A stretch of DNA of 64,000 nt, taken from Cyclobacteriaceae bacterium (lineage in GTDB: Bacteria; Bacteroidota; Bacteroidia; Cytophagales; Cyclobacteriaceae). Location of the stretch: positions 23,646-87,645 of the forward strand of contig JAHBTY010000007.1 of the NCBI GenBank assembly GCA_019638355.1. The letters run 5' to 3'. Position numbers and translations under genes: made by a program. The notes beneath the pieces are model-generated. The model saw nothing but the letters and a program-made list of their open reading frames with translations. It did no database searches and was not told the DNA's origin. This document shows, one piece after another, positions 49,954-62,985 of the stretch. The number at the start of each line of letters is the position of its first letter. Position 1 is the stretch's first letter.

Positions 49954-51750
49954 ATGGAAAGAGTGTGCATTGCAATCCTGTTGCTGGGTGTATTGGCTTG
50001 CCAACCGCCCAAGGAAAAAATCCCAGAACCCATGTTAGAAAAACAAATTATCAAACCGGTTATCTACCAAATGATGACCCGCCTCTTCGGCAATCAATCT
50101 ACTACTAATAAACCGTACGGAACATTACAGGAAAATGGCGTTGGTAAATTAAACGATATCAACGAAACCGCATTGCAAGCAATTAAACAATTAGGCGTAA
50201 CCCATGTATGGTACACCGGTGTAATTGAACATGCCTTGCTTACGGATTACACACAATATGGAATTGCACTGGATGATGCTGATATTGTAAAAGGCCGGGC
50301 CGGATCGCCTTACGCAATAAAAGACTATTATGACATCAATCCCGACCTGGCTGTAGATGTTAAAAACCGAATGGCCGAGTTTGAAGCATTGATTGCACGT
50401 ACACACATAGCCGGTATGAAAGTAATCATCGACTTTGTGCCCAACCATGTGGCACGAGCTTACAAGAGCGATGCTAAACCTGCCGGTGTAAAAGATCTGG
50501 GCGAAGAAGATGATACGTCCGTTTCATTCAAGCCTACTAACAACTTCTATTATTTGCCAGGCCAAACGTTTCAACCACCGGCACGCTACAATCCATTGGC
50601 ACAGGAAAAAGCAAACACCGAAGACAAGAGGTTTTTAGAAATACCGGCCAAAGTTACCGGCAACGATCAGTTTACAGCTACACCGGGTATAAACGAATGG
50701 TTCGAAACCGTTAAACTCAATTATGGAGTTGATATTCAAAACAATCGCAGCAAACATTTCGATCCGATACCCAACACCTGGGTAAAGATGAAAGACATTC
50801 TGGTGTTTTGGGCGCAAAAAGGTGTTGATGGTTTTCGGTGCGACATGGCCGAAATGGTTCCGGTTGAATTCTGGCAATGGGCAGTACCACAAGTTAAGGC
50901 TGTTGCACCACATATTATTTTTATTGCCGAGATTTATAACCCACAGGAATATCGCAATTATATCCACACCGGTAAGTTCGATTTGTTGTATGATAAAGTA
51001 CAGTTATACGATACCCTGCGTAATCTTACCAATGGACAAGGCAATACCAACTACATTACCGGCATACAACAATGGTTAGCCGATATTAATGCCCATATGT
51101 TACACTTCCTCGAAAATCACGATGAGCAGCGCATTGCTTCACGCGATTTTGCTGGCGATCCCTGGAAGGCAGTTCCGGCAATGGTAATCAGTGCTACAAT
51201 CGACAAGGCTCCGGTTATGATTTACTTCGGGCAAGAAGTTGGCGAGCCGGGCTCCGGTGCTGAAGGTTTTGGTGGTGAAGATGGTCGCACCACTATATTC
51301 GATTATTGGGGTGTGCCCGAACATCAAAAGTGGATGAATGGCGGAAAGTTTGATGGAGGCCAGTTAAGCGAAAATCAAAAAGCCTTACGTCAATTCTATG
51401 CCGACATTTTGAAGTTTGCTTCCACGAATCCGGCCATTGTGCAAGGTGCTTATTATGATTTAACAGTTTTTAATCAACAACAGGGAAATATTCCACACCA
51501 AGTACATGCATTTGCACGCGTGCAGGGCGATGAACGATTAGTGATTGTTTCGGGATTTAACGATAAACCACTGCGGGTAAAAATTAAACTCAGCGATGAG
51601 GTGAAACAAGCATTCAACCTACAAGCCGATCAAGTGTATGTAGGGCGCGATTTATTGCGCAGCGGTGCCGATATTGGCTTGAATGCCGAAGCTACATTTG
51701 AGGTAGATGTGCCGCCTTATGTTTCCTACATTTTTAAAATTAAAAACTGA
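49954..51750 (+). CDS. GH13 alpha-amylase-family lipoprotein (1)
   Basis: This 598-residue protein has a lipoprotein signal MERVCIAILLLGVLACQPP (Cys16), a GH13 TIM barrel and a C-terminal beta domain. Conserved regions are VIIDFVPNHVARAY, DGFRCDMAEMVP with nucleophile Asp297, IFIAEIYNP with acid/base Glu326 and LENHDEQR with the transition-state Asp. An inserted domain of about 70 residues between regions I and II (TNNFYYLPGQTFQPPARYNP...) is unusual. It probably hydrolyses alpha-glucans in the periplasm or at the surface. It heads the glucan operon and overlaps the next gene by 1 base. Confidence 0.9.
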   Translation: MERVCIAILLLGVLACQPPKEKIPEPMLEKQIIKPVIYQMMTRLFGNQSTTNKPYGTLQENGVGKLNDINETALQAIKQLGVTHVWYTGVIEHALLTDYTQYGIALDDADIVKGRAGSPYAIKDYYDINPDLAVDVKNRMAEFEALIARTHIAGMKVIIDFVPNHVARAYKSDAKPAGVKDLGEEDDTSVSFKPTNNFYYLPGQTFQPPARYNPLAQEKANTEDKRFLEIPAKVTGNDQFTATPGINEWFETVKLNYGVDIQNNRSKHFDPIPNTWVKMKDILVFWAQKGVDGFRCDMAEMVPVEFWQWAVPQVKAVAPHIIFIAEIYNPQEYRNYIHTGKFDLLYDKVQLYDTLRNLTNGQGNTNYITGIQQWLADINAHMLHFLENHDEQRIASRDFAGDPWKAVPAMVISATIDKAPVMIYFGQEVGEPGSGAEGFGGEDGRTTIFDYWGVPEHQKWMNGGKFDGGQLSENQKALRQFYADILKFASTNPAIVQGAYYDLTVFNQQQGNIPHQVHAFARVQGDERLVIVSGFNDKPLRVKIKLSDEVKQAFNLQADQVYVGRDLLRSGADIGLNAEATFEVDVPPYVSYIFKIKN

Positions 51751-53300
51751 TGCGAAAACTAATTGCACTTTTATTAATTGTTTTTGTCTGGAGTTGTGAG
51801 CCCACGCCAAAGTCGGTAGTAAAGTGGCCGCATGGTGTTAACTACGAAGTTTTTGTGCGCTCGTATGCGGATAGCAATGGCGATGGGATTGGCGACTTCA
51901 ACGGACTAACGGCTAAACTCGATTATCTGAAAGACCTTGGCGTGGGTGGTATCTGGTTAATGCCAATCATGCCTTCGCCAACCTACCACAAGTACGATGT
52001 AATGGATTACAAAACGGTAGATGGCGAATATGGAACCGTTGAAGATTTTAAGAAGCTGGTAGCGGAAGCACACAAGCGCGATATCCGCATCCTGGTTGAT
52101 CTGATTTTGAATCATTCAGGCGCTGATCATCCCTGGTTTCAGGAAGCCATTAAAGGCAAGGACAATCCATACCGCAATTATTACGTGTGGGCTAAAAAAG
52201 ATTCTATCCGCAATCAATTGTCAAAGAAAACCACCTCGCTCGATTCGGATAATATTACACAATGGCACGCGGTAAATGGCGATACGCTGAGCGAACATTA
52301 TTACGGATTTTTCTGGGGTGGTATGCCCGACTTGAATTTTGATAATCCAAAAGTAAGGCAGGAGTTTGTAGATATTGGAAAATTCTGGCTGGAAGAAATG
52401 CAGGTAGATGGTTTCCGGTTAGATGCTGCTAAGCATATTTATCCAACCGATCGTGCTGCGGATAACCATGCATTCTGGGTTTGGTTCCGGGAAGAAATGC
52501 AAAAGATAAAACCCGATGTGTACCTGGTAGGCGAGGTGTGGAGCAGTGCCCCCGAAGTAGCGCCTTACCTGAAGGGTTTACCAGCCTTGTTTAATTTCGA
52601 TATGGGGTATGCCATTACCGCTGCGGTTCGGGCCGGGCAAGACACGATTCAGTTAATCAACAAATACAAAAGTATTAATGACTTTTATCTGCAAACAACC
52701 AACGATTACATTGATGCAACTTTTTTAAAGAATCACGATCAGAATCGAATCTTAAGCGAATTGGGTGGCGATCAGAATAAAGCACGCGTTGCAGCAGCGA
52801 TCTTGTTTACGTTGCCCGGTACACCCTATGTGTATTATGGCGAAGAGATTGGAATGTTGGGTATGAAACCCGATGAATTTATTCGCGAACCATTTTTGTG
52901 GAGCAATGAATCACGAGACCCAACTATCACAACCTGGGAAGAACCGAGGTACAGCAATCTGAATACAGTAAAACCTCTATCCGCTCAACAGGCCGAACCT
53001 AACTCACTATTTAACTTCTATAAAAAGTTTATTGCCTACCGCAATGGCAGCAAAGCATTAACATATGGTTCGTTACTGGAAGCAGAAATTGAGGTGAAAG
53101 AAATTGTGGCCCTGATCCGAAAATACGAGAATGAAGAAAGTTATTTGATCCTGCACAACATTTCGGATGTAGCAGTAACGCTAAAACCCGAAGGTCAGTT
53201 AGCAGCTTTTACACAAGTTGATTTTGTGTCGCAAGGTGAAGTAGTGAAGAATGAAGAGGGTTGGGTAATTCCAGCCTACACCTCGGTAATTTTAAAATAG
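51750..53300 (+). CDS. GH13 alpha-amylase-family lipoprotein (2)
   Basis: This 516-residue protein has a lipoprotein signal MRKLIALLLIVFVWSCEPT (Cys16) and a GH13 barrel. It contains NGDGIGDFNGLTAKLDYLKDLGVGGIWLMPI (with a possible Ca site DSNGDGIGD), VDLILNHSGADHPWF, DGFRLDAAKHIYP (nucleophile), VYLVGEVWSS (acid/base), FLKNHDQNR and TPYVYYGEEIGMLG. It resembles oligo-1,6-glucosidase or maltogenic types. Together with the preceding enzyme it would degrade external alpha-glucans to maltose or glucose before import, which is inference. GlgE follows after 11 bases. Confidence 0.92.
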   Translation: MRKLIALLLIVFVWSCEPTPKSVVKWPHGVNYEVFVRSYADSNGDGIGDFNGLTAKLDYLKDLGVGGIWLMPIMPSPTYHKYDVMDYKTVDGEYGTVEDFKKLVAEAHKRDIRILVDLILNHSGADHPWFQEAIKGKDNPYRNYYVWAKKDSIRNQLSKKTTSLDSDNITQWHAVNGDTLSEHYYGFFWGGMPDLNFDNPKVRQEFVDIGKFWLEEMQVDGFRLDAAKHIYPTDRAADNHAFWVWFREEMQKIKPDVYLVGEVWSSAPEVAPYLKGLPALFNFDMGYAITAAVRAGQDTIQLINKYKSINDFYLQTTNDYIDATFLKNHDQNRILSELGGDQNKARVAAAILFTLPGTPYVYYGEEIGMLGMKPDEFIREPFLWSNESRDPTITTWEEPRYSNLNTVKPLSAQQAEPNSLFNFYKKFIAYRNGSKALTYGSLLEAEIEVKEIVALIRKYENEESYLILHNISDVAVTLKPEGQLAAFTQVDFVSQGEVVKNEEGWVIPAYTSVILK

Positions 53301-53311
53301 TATAAACAGGT

Positions 53312-55255
53312 ATGGCAAGCGGAAAGAAACGGGTAATTATTGAAAATGTACAACCACAGGTAGATGGTGGGTTGTATCCTGCCAAGCGATCAGTTGGCGA
53401 ACGGGTGGATGTAACGGCTGCTATCTTTGGCGATGGTCACGATCATATTCGTGGAGAAGTGCTGTATAAAAAACAAGGTGCAAAGGAGTGGGCCAGGGTT
53501 GAACTGATACCAACTTACAACGATGAATGGCAGGCTTCATTTTATGTGTCTGAAAAAGGAAATTATATTTTTACCATTCAAGCCTGGATCGATCACTTTG
53601 AAACCTGGTACGATGGCTTTAAAAAGAAAGCACTTGCCAAGGTAAATGTAACTGTTGAGTTGGCTGAAGGGGTTTTACTCTTGCAACGATTAGGAAAAAC
53701 CAATTCGTCTCTTCTAAGTATTGCCCGTAAACTGGAAGATAAAAATCAGGATGCAGCCATCGCTTATGTGTTGAGCGATGAGTTTGCGCATATAGTTCAT
53801 CAGAATCCTTTACGGGATAATGAAACCAAGTATGATCAGGAGTTTCTTGTTCAGGTTGAACACCGGAAGGCAAACTTCAGTGCGTGGTACGAATTTTTTC
53901 CGCGCTCATCTTCACTCGATTCAGGCAAGCATGGAAACTTTAATGATTGCATCCGGCTGCTGCCGCGCATTGCCGCTATGGGTTTTGATGTGCTCTATTT
54001 TCCACCCATTCATCCTATTGGAAAAGTTAATCGCAAAGGCAAGAACAACAACGTAAAATCACAACCGGGTGAGCCTGGTTCGCCCTGGGCCATTGGTAGC
54101 GATGAAGGTGGGCACAAATCAATTTTACCGGCTTTGGGAACACTGGAAGATTTTAAGCGACTGGTAGCAGAGGCCCGCAAGCTGGGTATAGATATCGCCA
54201 TGGACATTGCATTTCAATGTGCACCCGATCATCCTTACGTAACAGAACATCCGGATTGGTTTAAACAAAGGCCCGATGGCTCCATTCAATACGCGGAAAA
54301 TCCACCCAAAAAATACCAGGATATTTATCCATTCAATTTTGAATCAGATGATTGGCAAAATCTGTGGGAAGAGCTGAAGTCGGTTTTCTTCTATTGGATT
54401 GAACAAGGAGTAACTATTTTCAGAATAGATAATCCACATACAAAACCAATTCCTTTCTGGCAATGGGTAATTGCCGAAGTGCAAAAAGTACATCCGGATA
54501 TCATATTCTTATCAGAAGCTTTTACGCGACCGAAGATTATGGCTTCGTTGGCTAAAGTAGGTTTCACACAATCCTACACCTATTTTACATGGCGCGTTTC
54601 CAAACAGGAATTAATGGAGTATATGAACGACCTTGTATTTGGGCAATCGCGCAATTATTTCAGACCTAACTTTTGGCCCAATACACCCGATATCTTGCCG
54701 TATCATTTACAACACCAGGGTGAGAATATTTTTATTCTCAGGTATGCATTGGCGGCTACTCTTTCTTCCAACTATGGTGTATATGGCCCGCCTTACGAGT
54801 TTGGTGAAAATAATCCGATTGAAGGTAAAGAGGAATATTACAATTCAGAGAAGTACGAAATACGGCATTATGATTGGAAGCGCACCAACCGGCTTACCGA
54901 TATTATGAGCCTGTTGAACAAAGTGCGGAAAGAAAATGCTGCACTTCAATCAACCTGGAACTTACAATTTTGTCCCATCGAAAACGGCCAGATTATCGCA
55001 TACCTGAAGGCAACCGATGATCTTTCCAATATTATTCTGGTTGTGGTTAACCTTGATCCAAACAATACACAGCACGGCTATGTACAATTACCCAAGGCAA
55101 AGTTGCGATTGAGTGAGAAGATCAATGTGAAGCTGCACGACCTGGTTACAGACGAGCATTATACGTGGACACAAGAGTGGAATTATGTTCACCTGAATCC
55201 GCACAAGATGCCGTTTCATTTATTTAAAGTTGAAATTCACGAGTCAAACATGTAA
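53312..55255 (+). CDS. glgE: Alpha-1,4-glucan:maltose-1-phosphate maltosyltransferase (GlgE)
   Basis: This 647-residue cytoplasmic GH13_3 enzyme extends alpha-1,4-glucan with maltosyl units from maltose 1-phosphate. It has an N-terminal beta domain (DUF3416 type, about residues 1-110), a helical region and the catalytic barrel with YFPPIHPIGKVNRKGKNN, IAFQCAPDHPYV, TIFRIDNPHTKP (nucleophile Asp373) and IIFLSEAFTRPK (acid/base Glu). The segments are close to the GlgE consensus and all key residues are present. It lies 3 bases upstream of the TreS-maltokinase gene, which supplies its substrate. Confidence 0.96.
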   Translation: MASGKKRVIIENVQPQVDGGLYPAKRSVGERVDVTAAIFGDGHDHIRGEVLYKKQGAKEWARVELIPTYNDEWQASFYVSEKGNYIFTIQAWIDHFETWYDGFKKKALAKVNVTVELAEGVLLLQRLGKTNSSLLSIARKLEDKNQDAAIAYVLSDEFAHIVHQNPLRDNETKYDQEFLVQVEHRKANFSAWYEFFPRSSSLDSGKHGNFNDCIRLLPRIAAMGFDVLYFPPIHPIGKVNRKGKNNNVKSQPGEPGSPWAIGSDEGGHKSILPALGTLEDFKRLVAEARKLGIDIAMDIAFQCAPDHPYVTEHPDWFKQRPDGSIQYAENPPKKYQDIYPFNFESDDWQNLWEELKSVFFYWIEQGVTIFRIDNPHTKPIPFWQWVIAEVQKVHPDIIFLSEAFTRPKIMASLAKVGFTQSYTYFTWRVSKQELMEYMNDLVFGQSRNYFRPNFWPNTPDILPYHLQHQGENIFILRYALAATLSSNYGVYGPPYEFGENNPIEGKEEYYNSEKYEIRHYDWKRTNRLTDIMSLLNKVRKENAALQSTWNLQFCPIENGQIIAYLKATDDLSNIILVVVNLDPNNTQHGYVQLPKAKLRLSEKINVKLHDLVTDEHYTWTQEWNYVHLNPHKMPFHLFKVEIHESNM

Positions 55256-55258
55256 CGC

Positions 55259-58200
55259 ATGGCAAGTAAGAACTCCGATGCATTATGGTTTAAAGATGCC
55301 GTTATCTATGAATTAAGCGTTCGCGCCTTTAATGATAGCAATGCTGATGGTATTGGCGATTTTCCCGGGTTGATTCAACGATTGGATTACCTCGAAGATT
55401 TGGGTATTAACACCATTTGGTTGTTACCATTCTTCCCATCACCATTGAAAGACGATGGCTACGATGTTACCGAATACTGCGACATCCATCCGGATTATGG
55501 AACGCTGGCCGACTTTAAGCTTTTTTTAAAAGAAGCGCATCGCAGAAACATTCGGGTAATAACCGAGTTGGTACTAAACCATACCTCCGATCAACACCCG
55601 TGGTTTCAGAAATCGCGCAAAGCCCGTTCAGGTTCGCGGTACAAAGATTATTACGTGTGGAGCGACAGTGCCGATAAGTATCGGGATGCCCGCATCATGT
55701 TTACCGAAGAAGAGTCTTCCAATTGGTCGTGGGACAACGAAGCCAAAATGTATTACTGGCATCGGTATTACCGGCATCAACCTGAATTGAATTATGAAAA
55801 CCCCGAAGTACAACTGGAGATAATTAAAGTAGTTGACTTCTGGATGAAGATGGGTGTAGATGGATTTCGGTTAGCGAATGTTCCTTTTTTGTTTGAAGAA
55901 GAAGGAACCAGTTGCGAAAACTTACCCCAAACGCATGCTTTCTTAAAGCGGTTAAGAGCACACATTGATAAGCATTACGATAACCGTGTGTTGCTGGCTG
56001 AAGCGAACATGTGGCCCGAAGATGCAGCCCAATATTTTGGCCAGGGCGATGAGTGCCACATGAATTTTCATTATCCGTTAATGCCGCGATTGTACCTCGG
56101 CTTGCGAACGGAAGATACGTATCCAATAATTGATATTCTGGAGCAAACTCCATCTACGCCACCCAATGCACAATGGGCACTTTTCCTGCGCAACCATGAT
56201 GAGATTGGATTGGAGATGGTTACTGAAGAAGAAAAGGATTACTTATTCAAAGCTTACGCCACTGATCCGAACACTAAGCATAACATAGGTATTCGCAGAC
56301 GGTTGGCGCCATTGCTTAATAATGACCGCAGAAAGATTGAGTTGCTCTATGCAATCCTGTTTTCGTTGCCGGGAACACCTGTACTTTATTATGGTGATGA
56401 GATTGGGATGGGGGATAACATTTACCTGGGCGATCGCTTTGGGGTACGCACGCCCATGCAGTGGAACATGAATATCAATGCCGGGTTTTCATCGGCTAAT
56501 CCGCAAAAGCTTTTTCTGCCGATTATAACCGACCCGATGTACCGCCATGAATCAATTAATGTAGCTACACAGGAAGAGAATCCATCTTCCTTATTGTGGT
56601 GGATCCGCAACCTGCTCAGCATGCGAAGGCGATTGGGCGTATTCGGTAAGGGCAGTTTGAAATTTATTGAGAGCAGTAACTCGAAGGTACTCTGTTTTGC
56701 GCGGGTACATGAAAAGGAGAGTATAATTGTAGTGGCAAACCTATCGCAATTCAGCCAGGCTACTACACTCGACCTGAAGTTGTTTAAAGATTGCGACATA
56801 ACCGAAGTGTTCAGCCAGAACCGGTTTATGAGTGTGGGCCAGGGCGATTATAATATTACCATTGGGCCTTATGGCTATTTCTGGTTCCAGGCCGATGCAT
56901 CGGAGAAGAAAGAGCAAGGCTCCAACTCCAACGAGTTGTTCTTGTTCAAGTCAGAACTCTCGTGGGAGCGCATGTTTAGCAATTACAACGATGTGCGTGT
57001 GCTCGAACGCAAAGTGCTGCAACCGTTTATGAAGAAATGTCGCTGGTTTGGCGGCAAAGCCCGCGCCATTTCCAAAATCAGTGTTAATAAAATGATTCCG
57101 CTTAAGGTAGATGGCGAATCGCATTACCTGGTTATAGTAGAAGTTCATTACGTGCAACGTTTGCCCGAACTCTATTTCCTGCCCATGTGCTTCATGCCTT
57201 CCGATGGTATGTTCGATAAAGCAGAGTACACAACACAAAGTGTAATTTGTCGTGCCGATATACAAGGCAAAGTAGGCTTTGTTGTGGATAGCAGTTATCA
57301 CAAAGGCTTCCGCGATTTTCTGTTTGCAAGCATGGATCGCAAAGCCCGTGTTAAAGAAGATGAAGGCACGTTGGAGTTTAATAGCAGCGTATATACAAAA
57401 CTTAATTCTGAAAAAATAGAGTCGAAAATTTTAAAGGCCGACTCCAGCAATACCGCTATTATTTATAACGATAAATACTTCTTTAAATTCTACCGGAAGA
57501 TTGAGACCGAGATTAATCCGGACCTGGAGATTGTTCGGTTTTTATCCGAGAACACTTCGTTTCGCAATGCACCCAAGTATGCGGGTAGCGTAGAGTTTCG
57601 CGATAATGAAGGAAAGATAATGGTGTTTGGCTTGTTACAGGAAAAAGTTGAGAATCAAGGCGACTCCTGGATTATGACCATCGACTCGGTAGGTCGTTTT
57701 TACGAACGTGTGATGGCAAAAGCCAAAAAAGAGAAGTTGCCGCAATTAATCAACAAGGCAGCCATTCGGTTTGAAGATGCACCTGAACTGATTCAGGAAT
57801 TTATTGGTCGTGGGTTTTATGAACGAGTTGTAAGACTTGGACAACGCACAGCCGAAATGCATTTGGCATTGGCATCCGATAAATCAAACCCGGCTTTTGC
57901 ACCCGAAACCTTCACAACCAATTACCAGCGTTCGCTGTATTCAGCTTTGCGTAAGTTAACGCGCGATCGATTCAAATTATTGGAACAATCGATGGACAAA
58001 CTGAATGATGATACACAAGAACTTGCAAAAAAAGTATTGGCCTTGGAAGATAAAGTGCTGGAGTGTTTCAGTGAGGTTTATCAAACCAAAATTAACGGAA
58101 TAAAAACCCGCATTCATGGCGATTATCATTTAGGGCAAGTATTATTTACCGGTAAAGATTTCATTATTATCGATTTTGAAGGCGAACCTGGATTTAGTTT

Positions 58201-58585
58201 CAGCGAGCGCAGGCTTAAGAAAAATCCGATGAAAGATGTGGCCGGCATGATGCGCTCGTTCCATTATGCAGCCTTTGGTAAGATCCTGCTCAATGAAAAC
58301 TATCGCGAAAAGGATATTGAGTTTCTGGAACAATGGGCTGAGCAATGGCAACATTACGTGAGCCGGTTTTACTTAGGCGCCTACCTGGAACGTATCGGTT
58401 CAAAAGCTGAATTAGGTCTGGAAGATGAAATTCTGATCAGAACCTACTTGCTCGAAAAAGCAATCTATGAATTAGGCTATGAATTGAATGGCAGGCCGGA
58501 TTGGGTGAACATTCCACTGCGCGGAATTTATTATCTTATGAACCGGTATTTTCAGGCAAAAGAAGAACGGAAAAAGAAAAGCTGA
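55259..58585 (+). CDS. treS: TreS-maltokinase fusion with degenerate TreS active site
   Basis: This 1108-residue fusion joins a trehalose synthase/maltose alpha-glucosyltransferase (GH13_16, residues 1 to about 560) to a maltokinase (about 570-1108). The TreS part is highly conserved (SPLKDDGYDVTEY, LNHTSDQHPWFQ, LLAEANMWPED, LFLRNHDE, YYGDEIGMGDNIYLGDR). However, region II reads DGFRLANVP (Asp201 to Pro209), with Ala206 where the nucleophile Asp (DGFRLDAVP) is expected. MQWNMNINAGFS also departs from the usual MQW-PDRNAGFS. The maltokinase part keeps RIHGDYHLGQVL, IIDFEGEPG and RDVAGMMRSF-like motifs. I infer that the fusion phosphorylates maltose for GlgE, whereas maltose-trehalose interconversion is probably lost. 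Confidence 0.93.
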   Translation: MASKNSDALWFKDAVIYELSVRAFNDSNADGIGDFPGLIQRLDYLEDLGINTIWLLPFFPSPLKDDGYDVTEYCDIHPDYGTLADFKLFLKEAHRRNIRVITELVLNHTSDQHPWFQKSRKARSGSRYKDYYVWSDSADKYRDARIMFTEEESSNWSWDNEAKMYYWHRYYRHQPELNYENPEVQLEIIKVVDFWMKMGVDGFRLANVPFLFEEEGTSCENLPQTHAFLKRLRAHIDKHYDNRVLLAEANMWPEDAAQYFGQGDECHMNFHYPLMPRLYLGLRTEDTYPIIDILEQTPSTPPNAQWALFLRNHDEIGLEMVTEEEKDYLFKAYATDPNTKHNIGIRRRLAPLLNNDRRKIELLYAILFSLPGTPVLYYGDEIGMGDNIYLGDRFGVRTPMQWNMNINAGFSSANPQKLFLPIITDPMYRHESINVATQEENPSSLLWWIRNLLSMRRRLGVFGKGSLKFIESSNSKVLCFARVHEKESIIVVANLSQFSQATTLDLKLFKDCDITEVFSQNRFMSVGQGDYNITIGPYGYFWFQADASEKKEQGSNSNELFLFKSELSWERMFSNYNDVRVLERKVLQPFMKKCRWFGGKARAISKISVNKMIPLKVDGESHYLVIVEVHYVQRLPELYFLPMCFMPSDGMFDKAEYTTQSVICRADIQGKVGFVVDSSYHKGFRDFLFASMDRKARVKEDEGTLEFNSSVYTKLNSEKIESKILKADSSNTAIIYNDKYFFKFYRKIETEINPDLEIVRFLSENTSFRNAPKYAGSVEFRDNEGKIMVFGLLQEKVENQGDSWIMTIDSVGRFYERVMAKAKKEKLPQLINKAAIRFEDAPELIQEFIGRGFYERVVRLGQRTAEMHLALASDKSNPAFAPETFTTNYQRSLYSALRKLTRDRFKLLEQSMDKLNDDTQELAKKVLALEDKVLECFSEVYQTKINGIKTRIHGDYHLGQVLFTGKDFIIIDFEGEPGFSFSERRLKKNPMKDVAGMMRSFHYAAFGKILLNENYREKDIEFLEQWAEQWQHYVSRFYLGAYLERIGSKAELGLEDEILIRTYLLEKAIYELGYELNGRPDWVNIPLRGIYYLMNRYFQAKEERKKKS

Positions 58586-60546
58586 TGGCAAAGAAAGCAA
58601 CCAAAACAAAAGCTGAAGAACTGGATTCATTCAGCTTGCTAACCGACTTTGATATTCACCTGTTTAAAAGTGGTAAACATTTTAAACTGTATGAAAAGTT
58701 AGGAGCACACTTGGCAACCTTCAAGAAACAAGCTGGCACTTACTTTGCCGTGTGGGCACCCAATGCGCGTAGCGTTTCGGTTATTGGTAACTTCAATCAT
58801 TGGAACAGTAACGATCACAAACTTTCTCCTCGTTGGGACGAATCCGGCATCTGGGAAGGTTTCTTTCCTGGTATTGGCAAGGGCGAGGCTTACAAGTATG
58901 CGATTCATTCAAACACAGGCGAGTATCTCGAAAAAGCCGACCCATTTGCTTTTTATGCTGAAGTAGCGCCCCGCACTGCATCCATTGTGTGGGATCATGA
59001 TTACAACTGGAAAGACCAGATGTGGTTAACCGATCGCAAGAAAAATGCTTCGAAGCCAAAACCCTATTCTGTTTACGAAGTACATGCTGGTAGCTGGAAA
59101 AGAAAACCGGAAGACGGAAACCGTTCACTTTCGTATAAAGAATTGGCAACTGAATTGGTCAGCTATGTTAAAGAGAATGGCTTTACGCATGTAGAGTTTC
59201 TGCCGATTATGGAGCACCCGTTTTTTGGATCGTGGGGCTATCAGTTAACCGGCTACTTTGCACCTACCAGTCGATTTGGTGAGCCGCAGGATTTTATGAT
59301 TCTGGTTGATGCCTTACATGAAGCTGAGATTGGTGTAATTCTCGATTGGGTACCTTCACACTTTCCGGGCGATGCACACGGACTCTATAAATTTGATGGC
59401 ACACATTTGTTTGAACATGCCGATCCCCGCAAAGGGTTTCATCCCGATTGGAGCAGCTACATCTATAATTATGGTCGGGCCGAAGTACGATCATTTCTCA
59501 TTAGCAATGCATTGTTCTGGCTTGATGTGTTTCATGCCGATGGTTTGCGTGTAGATGCAGTTGCTTCTATGTTATACCTGGATTATTCCCGTAAGCAAGG
59601 TGAGTGGATACCCAATGAATATGGTGGTAATGAAAATATTGAAGCCATTAATTTCTTAAAAGAATTTAATGAGGTAGTGTATGGTACCTTTCCGGATGTA
59701 GTAACAATTGCCGAAGAAAGCACTGCCTGGCCCGGAGTTTCAAAACCTACTTACCTGGGTGGATTAGGTTTTGGGCAAAAATGGATGATGGGCTGGATGC
59801 ACGATACCTTGCATTACTTTAAATCCGATCCTATTCATCGCAAATACCATCAGGACGAAATTACATTCAGTATTGTATATGCCTTTACTGAAAACTTCAT
59901 GCTCCCGCTTTCGCACGATGAAGTGGTGCATGGTAAGGGTTCGCTGATCGGGCGTATGCCGGGCGATGAGTGGCGCAGGTTTGCAAACCTTCGTTTAATG
60001 TTTACCTACATGTTTACACACCCCGGAAGTAAACTTTTATTTATGGGTGGCGAGTTTGGCCAGACAGCCGAATGGAATCACGATCGCAGCCTCGACTGGC
60101 ATTTGCTGGATTATGCACCCCATCAGGGAATGCTAACGCTCATCCGCGAATTAAATCAGTTATACAAAACCGAACCAGCCTGCTTTCAGTTTCCTTTTGA
60201 TAACCGCGGGTTTGAGTGGGTGGATTATTCCGATCGCGAAAATAGCGTGATCGTATTTATGCGCAAAACCGAAAACAAACACGAGTCTGTTTTGATTGTG
60301 TGCAATTTTACGCCCGAAGTGCGCGAACATTATCGTATAGGTGTACCCTTGCGGGGAACGTATAAAGAAATTTTTAACTCGGATAATATGAAGTATGGTG
60401 GCAGCGGCTTGCTAAATCAAACCTTGCTTTATACTTCACCGGTCAAGTATCATAATCGCGATTATTCAGTGTCCATTACGCTACCTCCGTTGGGCGCTAC
60501 TGTTTTAAAACTTGTTGAAGAAAAAGCTGAGTTTGAATTAGAGTAA
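58585..60546 (+). CDS. glgB: 1,4-alpha-glucan branching enzyme (GlgB)
   Basis: This 653-residue enzyme introduces alpha-1,6 branches into glucan. It has a CBM48 domain (about 40-135, GTYFAVWAPNARSVSVIGNFNHWN), then the GH13_9 barrel with HAGSWKRKPEDGNRSLSY, FLPIMEHPFFGSWGYQ, VILDWVPSHFP, DGLRVDAVASMLYLDYSR (nucleophile), TIAEESTAWPGV (acid/base) and LPLSHDEVVHGKGSL. The ATG at 58585 overlaps the TreS-Mak stop (TGATG), so it is translationally coupled. A longer in-frame start at 58501 inside treS is not supported by the family N-terminus. Confidence 0.96.
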   Translation: MAKKATKTKAEELDSFSLLTDFDIHLFKSGKHFKLYEKLGAHLATFKKQAGTYFAVWAPNARSVSVIGNFNHWNSNDHKLSPRWDESGIWEGFFPGIGKGEAYKYAIHSNTGEYLEKADPFAFYAEVAPRTASIVWDHDYNWKDQMWLTDRKKNASKPKPYSVYEVHAGSWKRKPEDGNRSLSYKELATELVSYVKENGFTHVEFLPIMEHPFFGSWGYQLTGYFAPTSRFGEPQDFMILVDALHEAEIGVILDWVPSHFPGDAHGLYKFDGTHLFEHADPRKGFHPDWSSYIYNYGRAEVRSFLISNALFWLDVFHADGLRVDAVASMLYLDYSRKQGEWIPNEYGGNENIEAINFLKEFNEVVYGTFPDVVTIAEESTAWPGVSKPTYLGGLGFGQKWMMGWMHDTLHYFKSDPIHRKYHQDEITFSIVYAFTENFMLPLSHDEVVHGKGSLIGRMPGDEWRRFANLRLMFTYMFTHPGSKLLFMGGEFGQTAEWNHDRSLDWHLLDYAPHQGMLTLIRELNQLYKTEPACFQFPFDNRGFEWVDYSDRENSVIVFMRKTENKHESVLIVCNFTPEVREHYRIGVPLRGTYKEIFNSDNMKYGGSGLLNQTLLYTSPVKYHNRDYSVSITLPPLGATVLKLVEEKAEFELE

Positions 60547-60573: not shown

Positions 60574-62985
60574 ATGTCGGGTGTAGCGCCACGCAAGTAC
60601 GTTTGTATTCACGGTCATTTTTATCAGCCACCACGCGAAAATGCGTGGTTAGAAGTAATCGAGTTGCAGGACTCCGCGCATCCCTATCACGATTGGAATG
60701 AACGAATCACAGCCGAATGTTATGAGCCCAATGCTACTTCGCGGATTTTAAACGAAGGGGGTGTAATCAAAAACATTGTTAACAACTACGCACGCATCAG
60801 TTTCAATTTCGGGCCAACCTTACTCTCGTGGATGGAACAATATACACCCGAAACATACGAGGCCGTGCTGGAAGCGGACAAACTAAGTGCGAAAAATTTT
60901 GGTGGTCATGGTTCTGCCGTAGCGCAGGTGTATAACCACATCATCATGCCACTTGCTAATCGTGCGGATAAGGAAACGCAAATCATTTGGGGCATACGCG
61001 ATTTTGAATACCGCTTTAAGCGCAAACCCGAAGGCATGTGGTTGGCTGAAACTGCGGTAGATACTGAAACGCTTGAAGTACTGGCAGAGAACAACATCCG
61101 CTTTACCATTCTGGCACCGCGGCAAGCCAAAGCGGTTCGTAAAATAGGTACCAACGAATGGACGGAAGTAAATGACCGTACCGTAAATACAACCAAGGCT
61201 TACACATGCAACCTGCCAAGTGGCAAAAGTATTATTCTCTACTTTTATGAAGGTGATATTTCGCAAGGTATTGCCTTTAACGGTTTGCTGAACGATGGTA
61301 AACGATTTGCTGAACGACTGTTAAGTGTTGTAGAAGAAACGGATGAGCCACAATTGATTCATGTGGCTACTGATGGAGAAACCTATGGCCATCACCACAA
61401 GCATGGTGAAATGGCTTTAGCTTATTGTTTGGAATACATTGAGAAGGGCAACCAGGCACGTCTTACCAACTACGCACAGTTTCTGGAACTTTGCCCACCA
61501 GAACACGAAGTAGAGATAATTGAAAATAGTTCGTGGAGTTGTGTACACGGTGTTGAGCGCTGGCGCAATAACTGCGGTTGTAATTCTGGTAAGCCCGGTT
61601 GGCACCAACTCTGGCGGCAACCCTTACGCGAATCGTTGGATTGGTTGCGTAATCAAGCCATTGAAATTTTCGAACGAGAAGGAGCGAAGGTATTGCGTAA
61701 TCCGTGGGCTGCCCGTAACGATTACATCAATGTTGTGTTAAAACGCACCGATGAAAATGTGAAACGATTTCTGAAAGATCACGCATTAAGCGATGCAAGT
61801 GCAAACCAGATTCTACGCATTCTTGAAATTCAACGCCACGCCATGCTTATGTACACCAGTTGTGGTTGGTTCTTTGATGAAATTTCAGGTATTGAAACCA
61901 CCCAGGTTTTGCAATATGCCTGTCGCGTAATTCAATTAGCCAACCAGATTGGTGATGTAGACCTGGAACCTGAGTTTATTCAACGCCTCGAAGCAGCACC
62001 CAGCAATGTGGCGCAGTATGAAAATGGGGGTGGTGTTTACAAAAAGGCCGTGTTACCCTCGCGCACCAACCTGCAACGCGTGGGCATGCATTATGCCGTG
62101 TCATCAATCTTTGAAGAAGAACCCGAAGCACTAACAATTTTTAATTATACCACAGCCAACGAATCATTTACCAAGAAAGAAGCCGGTGAACAAAAGTTGG
62201 TGCTCGGTATAACAAAAGTAAAATCGTTGGTTACCCGGTCCGAAAAGAAGTTTGCCTTTGCTGTTATCTACCTCGGTAAGCACAACATTATCGGTAATAT
62301 TTCACTGGACATGGAACCCGATAAGTTTGCCGGTATGCAATTCAGAATGGTGAAAGCATTTGAAGAGGGCAGGTTAGGCGATGTAATCGGATTGATGCAG
62401 ATGTATTTTGGTCCGGAAAAATATACGATCTGGCATTTGTTTCAGGATGAGAAACGCAAAGTACTAGATAAAATTTCGCAAGAAAGTATGGCCGAGCTGG
62501 AGAGCTCATTGCGCAAGAGTTATAACCGCGATTACCCGCTTATAAATGCACTGGCCAATAATGACATTCCAATTCCCAGTACTTATAAAACTATATTTGA
62601 ATACGTGTTGAACGCTGATTTGATCCGTACGTTCCAGTCGGATAAAATTAATATTAAAGAGATGGAACGCATCGTAGCCGAGTTGGCACGTTGGAATTTA
62701 AAAATTGAAGACCCGCGCAAGCTCTCGCGCCTGGCAGGTGAGAGCGTATTTAAAGAACTAAAGCGCATTAGTAGCGAGCGTGAAAATGTAAAACGCATCC
62801 AACGCCTTAACAGAATGTTTCCATTGCTGGAAAAATTTCAGCTCGATCCTAATTTTCATAAAAGCCAGAATCTCTATTTCGAAATCTCGATGGAGAATAG
62901 ACAAAAAGGCCAATATCAACCGGAAGAAGCCTGGGTAGAACAATTTAATTTGCTGGGTAAAAACCTGGGCGTAAGGGTGGAATAA
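60574..62985 (+). CDS. GH57-family protein with DUF3536
   Basis: This 803-residue protein starts with the GH57 motif CIHGHFYQPPRENAW (HxxQP-like, residues 11-25), contains GMWLAETAVDTETLEVLAE (putative catalytic Glu near 155) and HVATDGETYGHHHKHGEMA (putative catalytic Asp near 268). After about residue 350 comes a long helical DUF3536-type region (WAARNDYINVVLKR to the end). GH57 enzymes act on alpha-glucans as amylases, 4-alpha-glucanotransferases or branching enzymes. The exact activity of the DUF3536 subtype is not established. As last gene of the operon it may remodel or degrade stored glucan. It starts 27 bases after glgB. Confidence 0.9.
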   Translation: MSGVAPRKYVCIHGHFYQPPRENAWLEVIELQDSAHPYHDWNERITAECYEPNATSRILNEGGVIKNIVNNYARISFNFGPTLLSWMEQYTPETYEAVLEADKLSAKNFGGHGSAVAQVYNHIIMPLANRADKETQIIWGIRDFEYRFKRKPEGMWLAETAVDTETLEVLAENNIRFTILAPRQAKAVRKIGTNEWTEVNDRTVNTTKAYTCNLPSGKSIILYFYEGDISQGIAFNGLLNDGKRFAERLLSVVEETDEPQLIHVATDGETYGHHHKHGEMALAYCLEYIEKGNQARLTNYAQFLELCPPEHEVEIIENSSWSCVHGVERWRNNCGCNSGKPGWHQLWRQPLRESLDWLRNQAIEIFEREGAKVLRNPWAARNDYINVVLKRTDENVKRFLKDHALSDASANQILRILEIQRHAMLMYTSCGWFFDEISGIETTQVLQYACRVIQLANQIGDVDLEPEFIQRLEAAPSNVAQYENGGGVYKKAVLPSRTNLQRVGMHYAVSSIFEEEPEALTIFNYTTANESFTKKEAGEQKLVLGITKVKSLVTRSEKKFAFAVIYLGKHNIIGNISLDMEPDKFAGMQFRMVKAFEEGRLGDVIGLMQMYFGPEKYTIWHLFQDEKRKVLDKISQESMAELESSLRKSYNRDYPLINALANNDIPIPSTYKTIFEYVLNADLIRTFQSDKINIKEMERIVAELARWNLKIEDPRKLSRLAGESVFKELKRISSERENVKRIQRLNRMFPLLEKFQLDPNFHKSQNLYFEISMENRQKGQYQPEEAWVEQFNLLGKNLGVRVE

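Follow-up and report, generated by a model that had tools for sequence, protein, structure and literature searches.

A trehalose synthase-maltokinase fusion without the trehalose synthase nucleophile, conserved in GlgE operons of a clade of Bacteroidota

Introduction

Accounts of the GlgE pathway usually present it as a route leading from trehalose to glycogen, and the locus studied here offers a version of it in which the entry enzyme appears to be dead yet conserved in dozens of species. In GH13 trehalose synthases, the Asp of region II is the catalytic nucleophile. This residue is replaced in the TreS half of a TreS-maltokinase fusion encoded in the window, as we call the whole stretch of 64,000 nucleotides from a Cyclobacteriaceae bacterium that was analysed. 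What a TreS domain may be doing in such a state, attached to a maltokinase (Mak), is the question that we address through its relatives, its neighbouring genes and the metabolic gene content of its hosts.

A fusion gene with an altered region II

The following features were delineated in the fusion gene:

55259..58585, + strand: TreS-maltokinase fusion gene, 1108 aa (TIGR02456 and TIGR02457 both above cut-off)
55286..56890, + strand: TreS (GH13) half, residues 10-544, without nucleophile (TIGR02456 match 10-544; Pfam PF00128, PF16657)
55874..55879, + strand: codons 206-207, gcg aat, giving Ala-Asn in place of the nucleophile Asp and an Ala (sequence; relatives)
56000..56002, + strand: Glu248, general acid/base, kept (Glu in 73/75 and Asp in 2/75 listed clade sequences)
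56198..56200, + strand: Asp314, transition-state stabiliser, kept (75/75 listed clade sequences; no change on the clade tree)
56456..56491, + strand: loop MQWNMNINAGFS, where Arg406 of the canonical DRNAGFS motif is gone (alignment of clade and canonical rows)
56987..58534, + strand: maltokinase half, residues 577-1092, with catalytic HGDYHLGQ and DFEGEP intact (TIGR02457; motifs; PDB maltokinases 4o7o, 5jy7, 4u94)

Profile scans recognised both halves, with 833 bits for TIGR02456 (TreS; maltose alpha-D-glucosyltransferase) against a cut-off of 678, and 446 bits for TIGR02457 (Mak) against 375. In the genome to which the window belongs (4.49 Mb, 99.95% complete), the fusion is the only gene above the TreS cut-off. 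Its region II, within the stretch of the open reading frame that carries residues 206 and 207 (GVDGFRLANVPFLFEEEGT), reads DGFRLANVP, with Ala at position 206 (gcg, 55874-55876) and Asn at position 207 (aat, 55877-55879). The initial annotation had already pointed to an Ala where the GH13 nucleophile is expected, and the codon bears it out. The protein thus has the profile score of a TreS together with the acid/base Glu and the stabiliser Asp, and lacks the nucleophile Asp; judged by the nucleophile, it does not qualify as a trehalose synthase.

A clade of relatives lacking the nucleophile

The TreS half served as a query against 196 genomes belonging to the GTDB family of the window, with no selection on residue 206. 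The TreS-Mak fusions fell into two clearly distinct sets: 29 genes, counting that of the window, with 72-100% identity, and 40 with 59-62%, which is the identity between the TreS halves of the clade and the canonical ones in this family. All 29 genes of the closer set lack the nucleophile Asp, which is replaced by Pro (11), Ser (9), Ala (5) or Gly (4), and none has an internal stop. Whether the Ala is clade-wide was a check proposed at the outset: it is the loss of the Asp that extends to the whole clade, Ala itself being found in only five of the 29. As these members were not selected by the residue, the loss is due neither to chance nor to error. The initial argument that no single sequencing error explains the change is in this way reinforced by genes from 29 genomes of different species carrying four different residues, by which a sequencing or assembly artefact is refuted and left with a negligible probability.

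Many more examples came from a pattern scan of genome contigs, which returned at least 80 loci. The pattern excludes Asp, Glu, Asn, Lys, Gln, His and Tyr at the nucleophile position, so these loci are no evidence for the absence of Asp, a claim that is carried by the 29 unselected genes. Among the matches listed, 77 are of the same type as the window's fusion and three, from actinobacteria, are of another kind. The 77 listed loci are labelled Cyclobacteriaceae, Flammeovirgaceae, Cytophagales, Fulvivirgaceae, named species of that group or plain Bacteroidetes, and include two metagenome-assembled genomes labelled Bacteroides and Chitinophaga. Once six sequences with less than 90% coverage, 23 duplicates and the three actinobacterial fusions were dropped, at least 75 distinct clade sequences were left, all of them from Bacteroidota, from isolates and metagenome-assembled genomes alike, with named strains such as Chryseolinea serpens, Ohtaekwangia koreensis and Chryseotalea sanaruensis. 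In the 75 listed distinct sequences, position 206 is occupied by Pro (32), Ala (21), Ser (15) or Gly (7), and position 207 by Ser (65), Asn (9) or Ala (1).

The clade was compared with 46 distinct canonical rows, a set defined by having the nucleophile Asp (46/46 by construction). This split by residue 206 coincides with the gap in identity described above and with a tree built without the nucleophile and loop columns. Eleven residues, namely Asp66, Asp69, His108, Arg145, Arg204, Asn250, His313, Asp314, Glu315, Arg393 and Arg397, are kept in all 75 listed clade rows, and the acid/base Glu248 in 73. The two remaining sequences (L062 and L093) have Asp at position 248 besides the missing nucleophile, as if decay were further advanced there. 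The loop MQWNMNINAGFS, noticed from the start as atypical, proved to be so throughout the clade: all 46 canonical rows have Arg or Lys at position 406, where the 75 listed clade rows show Leu, Ile, Val, Ser, Gln or Tyr. Next to the loss of Arg406, the same clade rows have Phe in place of Tyr210 (71 rows), Gly or Ala in place of Thr317 (75), Ser in place of His20 (70), His in place of Asn77 (73) and Gln in place of Arg497 (75). Five columns turned acidic in the clade (75, 161, 440, 471 and 513), none of them within region II, III or IV.

A different arrangement, in which a caspase-type peptidase domain (PF00656) is fused to a TreS-like GH13 domain, was seen in Microbispora corallina, Actinosynnema sp. 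ALI-1.44 and Actinophytocola oryzae (L106, 5433-8000; L107, 369-2861; L117, 3380-6211), with Val, Cys or Leu at the nucleophile position. L107 and L117 have no Mak after the GH13 domain in their frames, and the frame of L106 runs off its locus. These are apparently independent losses of the nucleophile, perhaps in sugar-sensing input domains of conflict systems.

Phylogeny and selection on the presumably silent domain

Quick trees with SH-aLRT support were built from 20 clade and 33 canonical rows, and the clade was monophyletic with a support of 100 both in the TreS tree, from which the nucleophile and loop columns had been removed, and in the Mak tree. A previous tree that included a short TreS homologue (L194) had been discarded, since the very long branch of this sequence upset the root and the support (76 for the clade), and was rebuilt without it. 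On the clade tree, position 206 changed 18 times and is among the faster changing sites of the TreS domain, 50 of 548 columns having changed at least that often; Arg204, His108 and Asp314 did not change at all, and Glu248 did so twice.

A more direct comparison was offered by 12 genomes that carry both versions of the fusion. Over their 66 pairs, the mean difference of the silent TreS (0.152) is practically that of the active one (0.154), whereas for Mak it is 0.19 when attached to the silent TreS and 0.358 otherwise. With Glu248 in 73 and Asp314 in all 75 listed clade sequences, this equal conservation agrees with the initial remark that the rest of the TreS domain is well conserved. Moreover, the eight closest of the 66 pairs included four with measurable dS, and in these the silent TreS has a dN/dS of 0.004-0.028. 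The silent TreS domain is under strong purifying selection, and its low divergence and low dN/dS are a behaviour unexpected for a useless domain. A catalytic residue is missing, then, and its loss is fixed in a clade under purifying selection, as is characteristic of a pseudoenzyme.

The GlgE operon

The fusion of the window lies in an operon of nearly touching genes, up to the point that the ATG of glgB shares the last base of the fusion stop codon:

49954..51750, + strand: GH13 alpha-amylase-like lipoprotein A (PF00128; 21/21 clade loci read; lipobox by eye)
51750..53300, + strand: GH13 alpha-amylase-like lipoprotein B (PF00128; best PDB match alpha-amylase 1wza; 8/21 clade loci read; lipobox by eye)
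53312..55255, + strand: GlgE maltosyltransferase (PF11896, PF21702; adjoins the fusion in 21/21 clade loci read)
58585..60546, + strand: GlgB branching enzyme (NF003811, 977 bits, above cut-off; scanned from 58573)
60574..62985, + strand: GH57/DUF3536 protein (PF03065, PF12055; 21/21 clade loci read)

The gene neighbourhood was examined in 21 clade genomes, out of the 28 that the family search gave besides the window's own. All 21 have GH13 lipoprotein A first, followed by lipoprotein B in the eight that possess it, then GlgE, the fusion, GlgB and GH57, so that glgE and glgB flank the fusion in every one of these loci as in the window, and the catalytic HGD and metal-binding DFE motifs of Mak are intact in the window protein and in each of the 21. 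Where both versions coexist (12 genomes), the single GlgE resides in the clade operon, and none was found near the canonical copy within the stretches read (one of only 7 kb).

As for the origin of maltose, the two lipoprotein amylases had been suggested as its source. This holds in part: lipoprotein A occurs in all 21 operons and lipoprotein B in only eight, and the proposal is also incomplete, as the window's genome has further loci of the Sus-type amylase and maltose-phosphorylase-like kinds. The product of the GH57/DUF3536 gene could be another source of maltose, given that 4-alpha-glucanotransferase activity has been described for a Pontibacter GH57 from a GlgE-type locus (PMC11206854).

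Trehalose, maltose and glycogen genes of the hosts

Gene content was determined in 45 genomes, that is, the 29 clade genomes and 16 of the 27 canonical-only genomes of the family search, and covered OtsA and TreY as trehalose-making enzymes; GlgE alone was sought in 15 further genomes (the other 11 canonical-only ones and four from a phylum search). The numbers of genomes with each gene were as follows, GT3 being glycogen synthase:

Silent version only (n=17): TreY 0, OtsA 2, MalQ 0, GlgE 17, GT3 13, GH65 17
Both versions (n=12): TreY 12, OtsA 12, MalQ 11, GlgE 12, GT3 9, GH65 12
Canonical with GlgE (n=11): TreY 11, OtsA 11, MalQ 11, GT3 1, GH65 7
Canonical without GlgE (n=5): TreY 1, OtsA 5, MalQ 5, GT3 5, GH65 3

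The idea of a GlgE fed by maltose rather than by trehalose, also put forward initially, is supported in its direction by the silent-only hosts, where TreY and MalQ are missing, OtsA is rare and GH65 universal. The clade being a single lineage, this link with gene content amounts to one evolutionary comparison and not to many. GlgE as the only route to glycogen was considered and rejected, as 13 of the 17 silent-only genomes have a GT3 synthase. No GlgA above cut-off was detected by profile search in any of the 45 genomes. A GlgA-like match does occur in 44 of them (e.g., G000, C2:527392-528066), nearly all best matches being confined to the N-terminal half, in frames about 270-340 aa long; according to a review, a GlgA-GT5 fragment is kept by Bacteroidetes (PMC11046441). 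In eight genomes (G030, G074, G079, G136, G156, G163, G177 and G182), adjacent TreY and GH77 matches have open frames of identical length, about 1400-1460 aa, and are likely TreY-MalQ fusions.

For the GH65 protein of the window's genome, the best match is maltose phosphorylase 1h54 (782 bits against 435 for a kojibiose phosphorylase), and its gene lies near those for a beta-phosphoglucomutase, a ROK-type sugar kinase and a GH13 protein. The latter scores 558 against the cut-off of 535 of NF008183, a subfamily model for alpha,alpha-phosphotrehalase, and stays below that of the equivalog TIGR02403 (626 against 799), so that some use of trehalose is possible in this genome. Another locus combines a TonB receptor, SusD, SusE and GH13 genes, as in Sus-type amylase loci. 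From the GH65 and Sus-type loci, maltose is likely an intracellular metabolite in this bacterium, whereas trehalose has no OtsA or TreY source there.

The mirror image: apparently dead kinases with a kept TreS

The reverse situation was found among relatives that have no GlgE. In seven of ten GlgE-less genomes (G079, G004 and G568, and G131, G159, G083 and G179, these last four of one genus), Mak has lost either its catalytic or its metal Asp, and the TreS nucleophile and the full length of the protein are kept. The other three (G066, G003 and G133) keep both kinase Asp residues and have lost the CRWFGGKAR-type motif. On the other hand, canonical TreS-Mak copies beside GlgE have intact kinase Asp residues in all 20 readable copies checked; a 21st is cut by a contig end, in a genome (G086) where a further copy, standing alone, carries a dead Mak. 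Pseudokinase counterparts, with the TreS nucleophile kept and the Mak Asp lost, are the loci L142, L159, L188 and L209-L213, which come from relatives without GlgE except for L213, a second and solitary copy in a genome with GlgE. A simple rule by which Mak dies where GlgE is absent is only partly true: it is broken by the three GlgE-less genomes with both kinase Asp residues, as well as by two genomes with GlgE elsewhere, one with the Mak metal Asp lost (G707) and one with a diverged Mak (G649). For a physical need of each half for the other, our best argument is that either of them can die and still stay.

Discussion

A close experimental counterpart of the window's TreS half is an engineered one. 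D238 is the nucleophile of M. tuberculosis TreS, and its D238A mutant is reported to lack activity, to be folded and to bind an analogue of trehalose (PMC11019547). This mutant (PDB 8UQV) has Ala at the residue aligned with position 206, and keeps fold and ligand binding. It differs in that it was engineered and is separate from Pep2, whereas the change in the window is natural, old and accompanied by others. By analogy, we infer that the TreS half of the window is catalytically inactive. Together with the clade-wide loss of the nucleophile and the strong purifying selection, the mutant supports the initial proposal of a pseudoenzyme half on an intact maltokinase.

From its sequence and gene context, we consider it probable that the fusion is a dedicated maltokinase on a catalytically silent TreS shell needed by Mak, in a maltose-fed GlgE pathway. 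The TreS half would be unable to interconvert trehalose and maltose, and maltose would be supplied by alpha-glucan breakdown; Mak would convert it to maltose 1-phosphate, to be polymerised by GlgE and branched by GlgB. According to a review, the TreS equilibrium favours trehalose, and it is the kinase that drives the flux towards maltose (PMC11046441). The nucleophile may have been lost because most host cells have no trehalose flux and an active TreS would drain maltose into trehalose, a leak that would be stopped by turning the fusion into a pure maltokinase. The TreS shell, in turn, would be retained because Mak needs it physically for its fold, oligomer or activity, and binding of maltose in the old TreS pocket as a regulatory signal is possible. 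Against the silent-shell reading, two silent-only genomes carry OtsA, and the 12 genomes with both versions have trehalose genes, so the absence of trehalose cannot be the sole reason for the loss. A bolder proposal, tentative and rather doubtful, is that the isomerase half came to bind maltose and to regulate the kinase allosterically, in a GlgE pathway that maltose would feed with no trehalose involved, that sister lineages silenced the kinase instead, and that dead halves are kept for mutual regulation or stabilisation.

Other explanations can be weighed against this background. The TreS half had also been proposed as a maltose/trehalose sensor. In such a reading, the emptied pocket would bind maltose or trehalose without turnover and its open-closed motion would switch the attached maltokinase. 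The invariance of the eleven residues named above (Asp66 to Arg397), together with Glu248 in 73 of 75 listed sequences, would suit such a role, as would the confinement of position 206 to Pro, Ala, Ser and Gly in those 75, though the scan pattern allowed larger residues; moreover, the M. tuberculosis D238A protein binds 6-TreAz and moves its loops (PMC11019547). A comparison of column retention nevertheless gave the sensor claim no support: 18 pocket columns (0.861) are retained no better than 217 other canonical-invariant columns (0.849; permutation p 0.46). The +1 subsite columns by the nucleophile are also altered (Ala207 to Ser or Asn, Tyr210 to Phe in 71 of 75 listed sequences), and work on D. 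radiodurans TreS reports undetectable activity upon changing Tyr213, matched to Tyr210 by motif spacing, to Ala (PMC4257617). A sensor is in our opinion unlikely.

Far less probable still is an altered chemistry, in which the kept acid/base Glu would assist phosphate, another small nucleophile or a front-face reaction on maltose or trehalose. The stabiliser is kept as well, and only small residues took the place of the nucleophile in the 75 listed sequences, as in engineered glycosynthases. Pro is however the commonest of them (32 of 75), position 206 changes often, the newly acidic columns fall in none of regions II, III and IV, Arg406 is lost, and the window's genome already possesses a maltose-phosphorylase-like GH65. 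Hardly more credible is a useless TreS in slow decay, conserved only through recency or linkage: OtsA and TreY are indeed both missing in 15 of the 17 silent-only hosts, but a relic would not be expected to persist in at least 75 distinct sequences, to be free of internal stops in the 29 genes of the family search, nor to be as conserved as the active TreS of the same genomes with the low dN/dS of the four pairs.

The silent shell has several known relatives. With canonical TreS-Mak/Pep2 fusions such as PA2152 of P. aeruginosa, it shares the two-domain build, the GlgE and GlgB partners, both models above cut-off and the Mak motifs; it differs in the clade-wide absence of the nucleophile Asp and the loop Arg, and in silent-only genomes that mostly lack OtsA and TreY. 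The initial comparison with the mycobacterial TreS:Pep2 complex (PDB 5JY7) is apt as regards TreS serving as a physical platform for the kinase, and loose otherwise: the mycobacterial TreS is active and a separate protein, and it boosts the kinase only modestly in M. tuberculosis and practically not at all in M. smegmatis (PMC6509496). For P. aeruginosa, measurements showed a route through TreS/Pep2 to maltose 1-phosphate that does not depend on trehalose: maltose is made by MalQ with no TreS step and phosphorylated by the fusion (PMC8084333). This bypass resembles the one proposed here; unlike the window protein, the TreS of P. aeruginosa is active though slow, and MalQ occurs in none of the 17 silent-only clade genomes. 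GH13_45 amylases with an aberrant triad were considered as a precedent and rejected, as the nucleophile is kept there (PMC11448133). No earlier report of a nucleophile-less TreS was found in the portions available of the open-licence PMC literature, subscription journals and preprints being outside the scope of the search. The parts are known, and their combination, a variant of the entry enzyme of the GlgE pathway, was not named within the portions covered.

Regarding annotation, profile models call such genes trehalose synthase although, from their region II, the proteins are most likely unable to make trehalose. The clade with a silent TreS and the mirror set with a seemingly dead kinase make the reason for the TreS-Mak fusion or complex directly testable, the more so as no channel seems to join the halves. 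For the soil and water bacteria that host this clade, the enzyme is most likely only a maltose kinase, standing on a silent but still needed partner.
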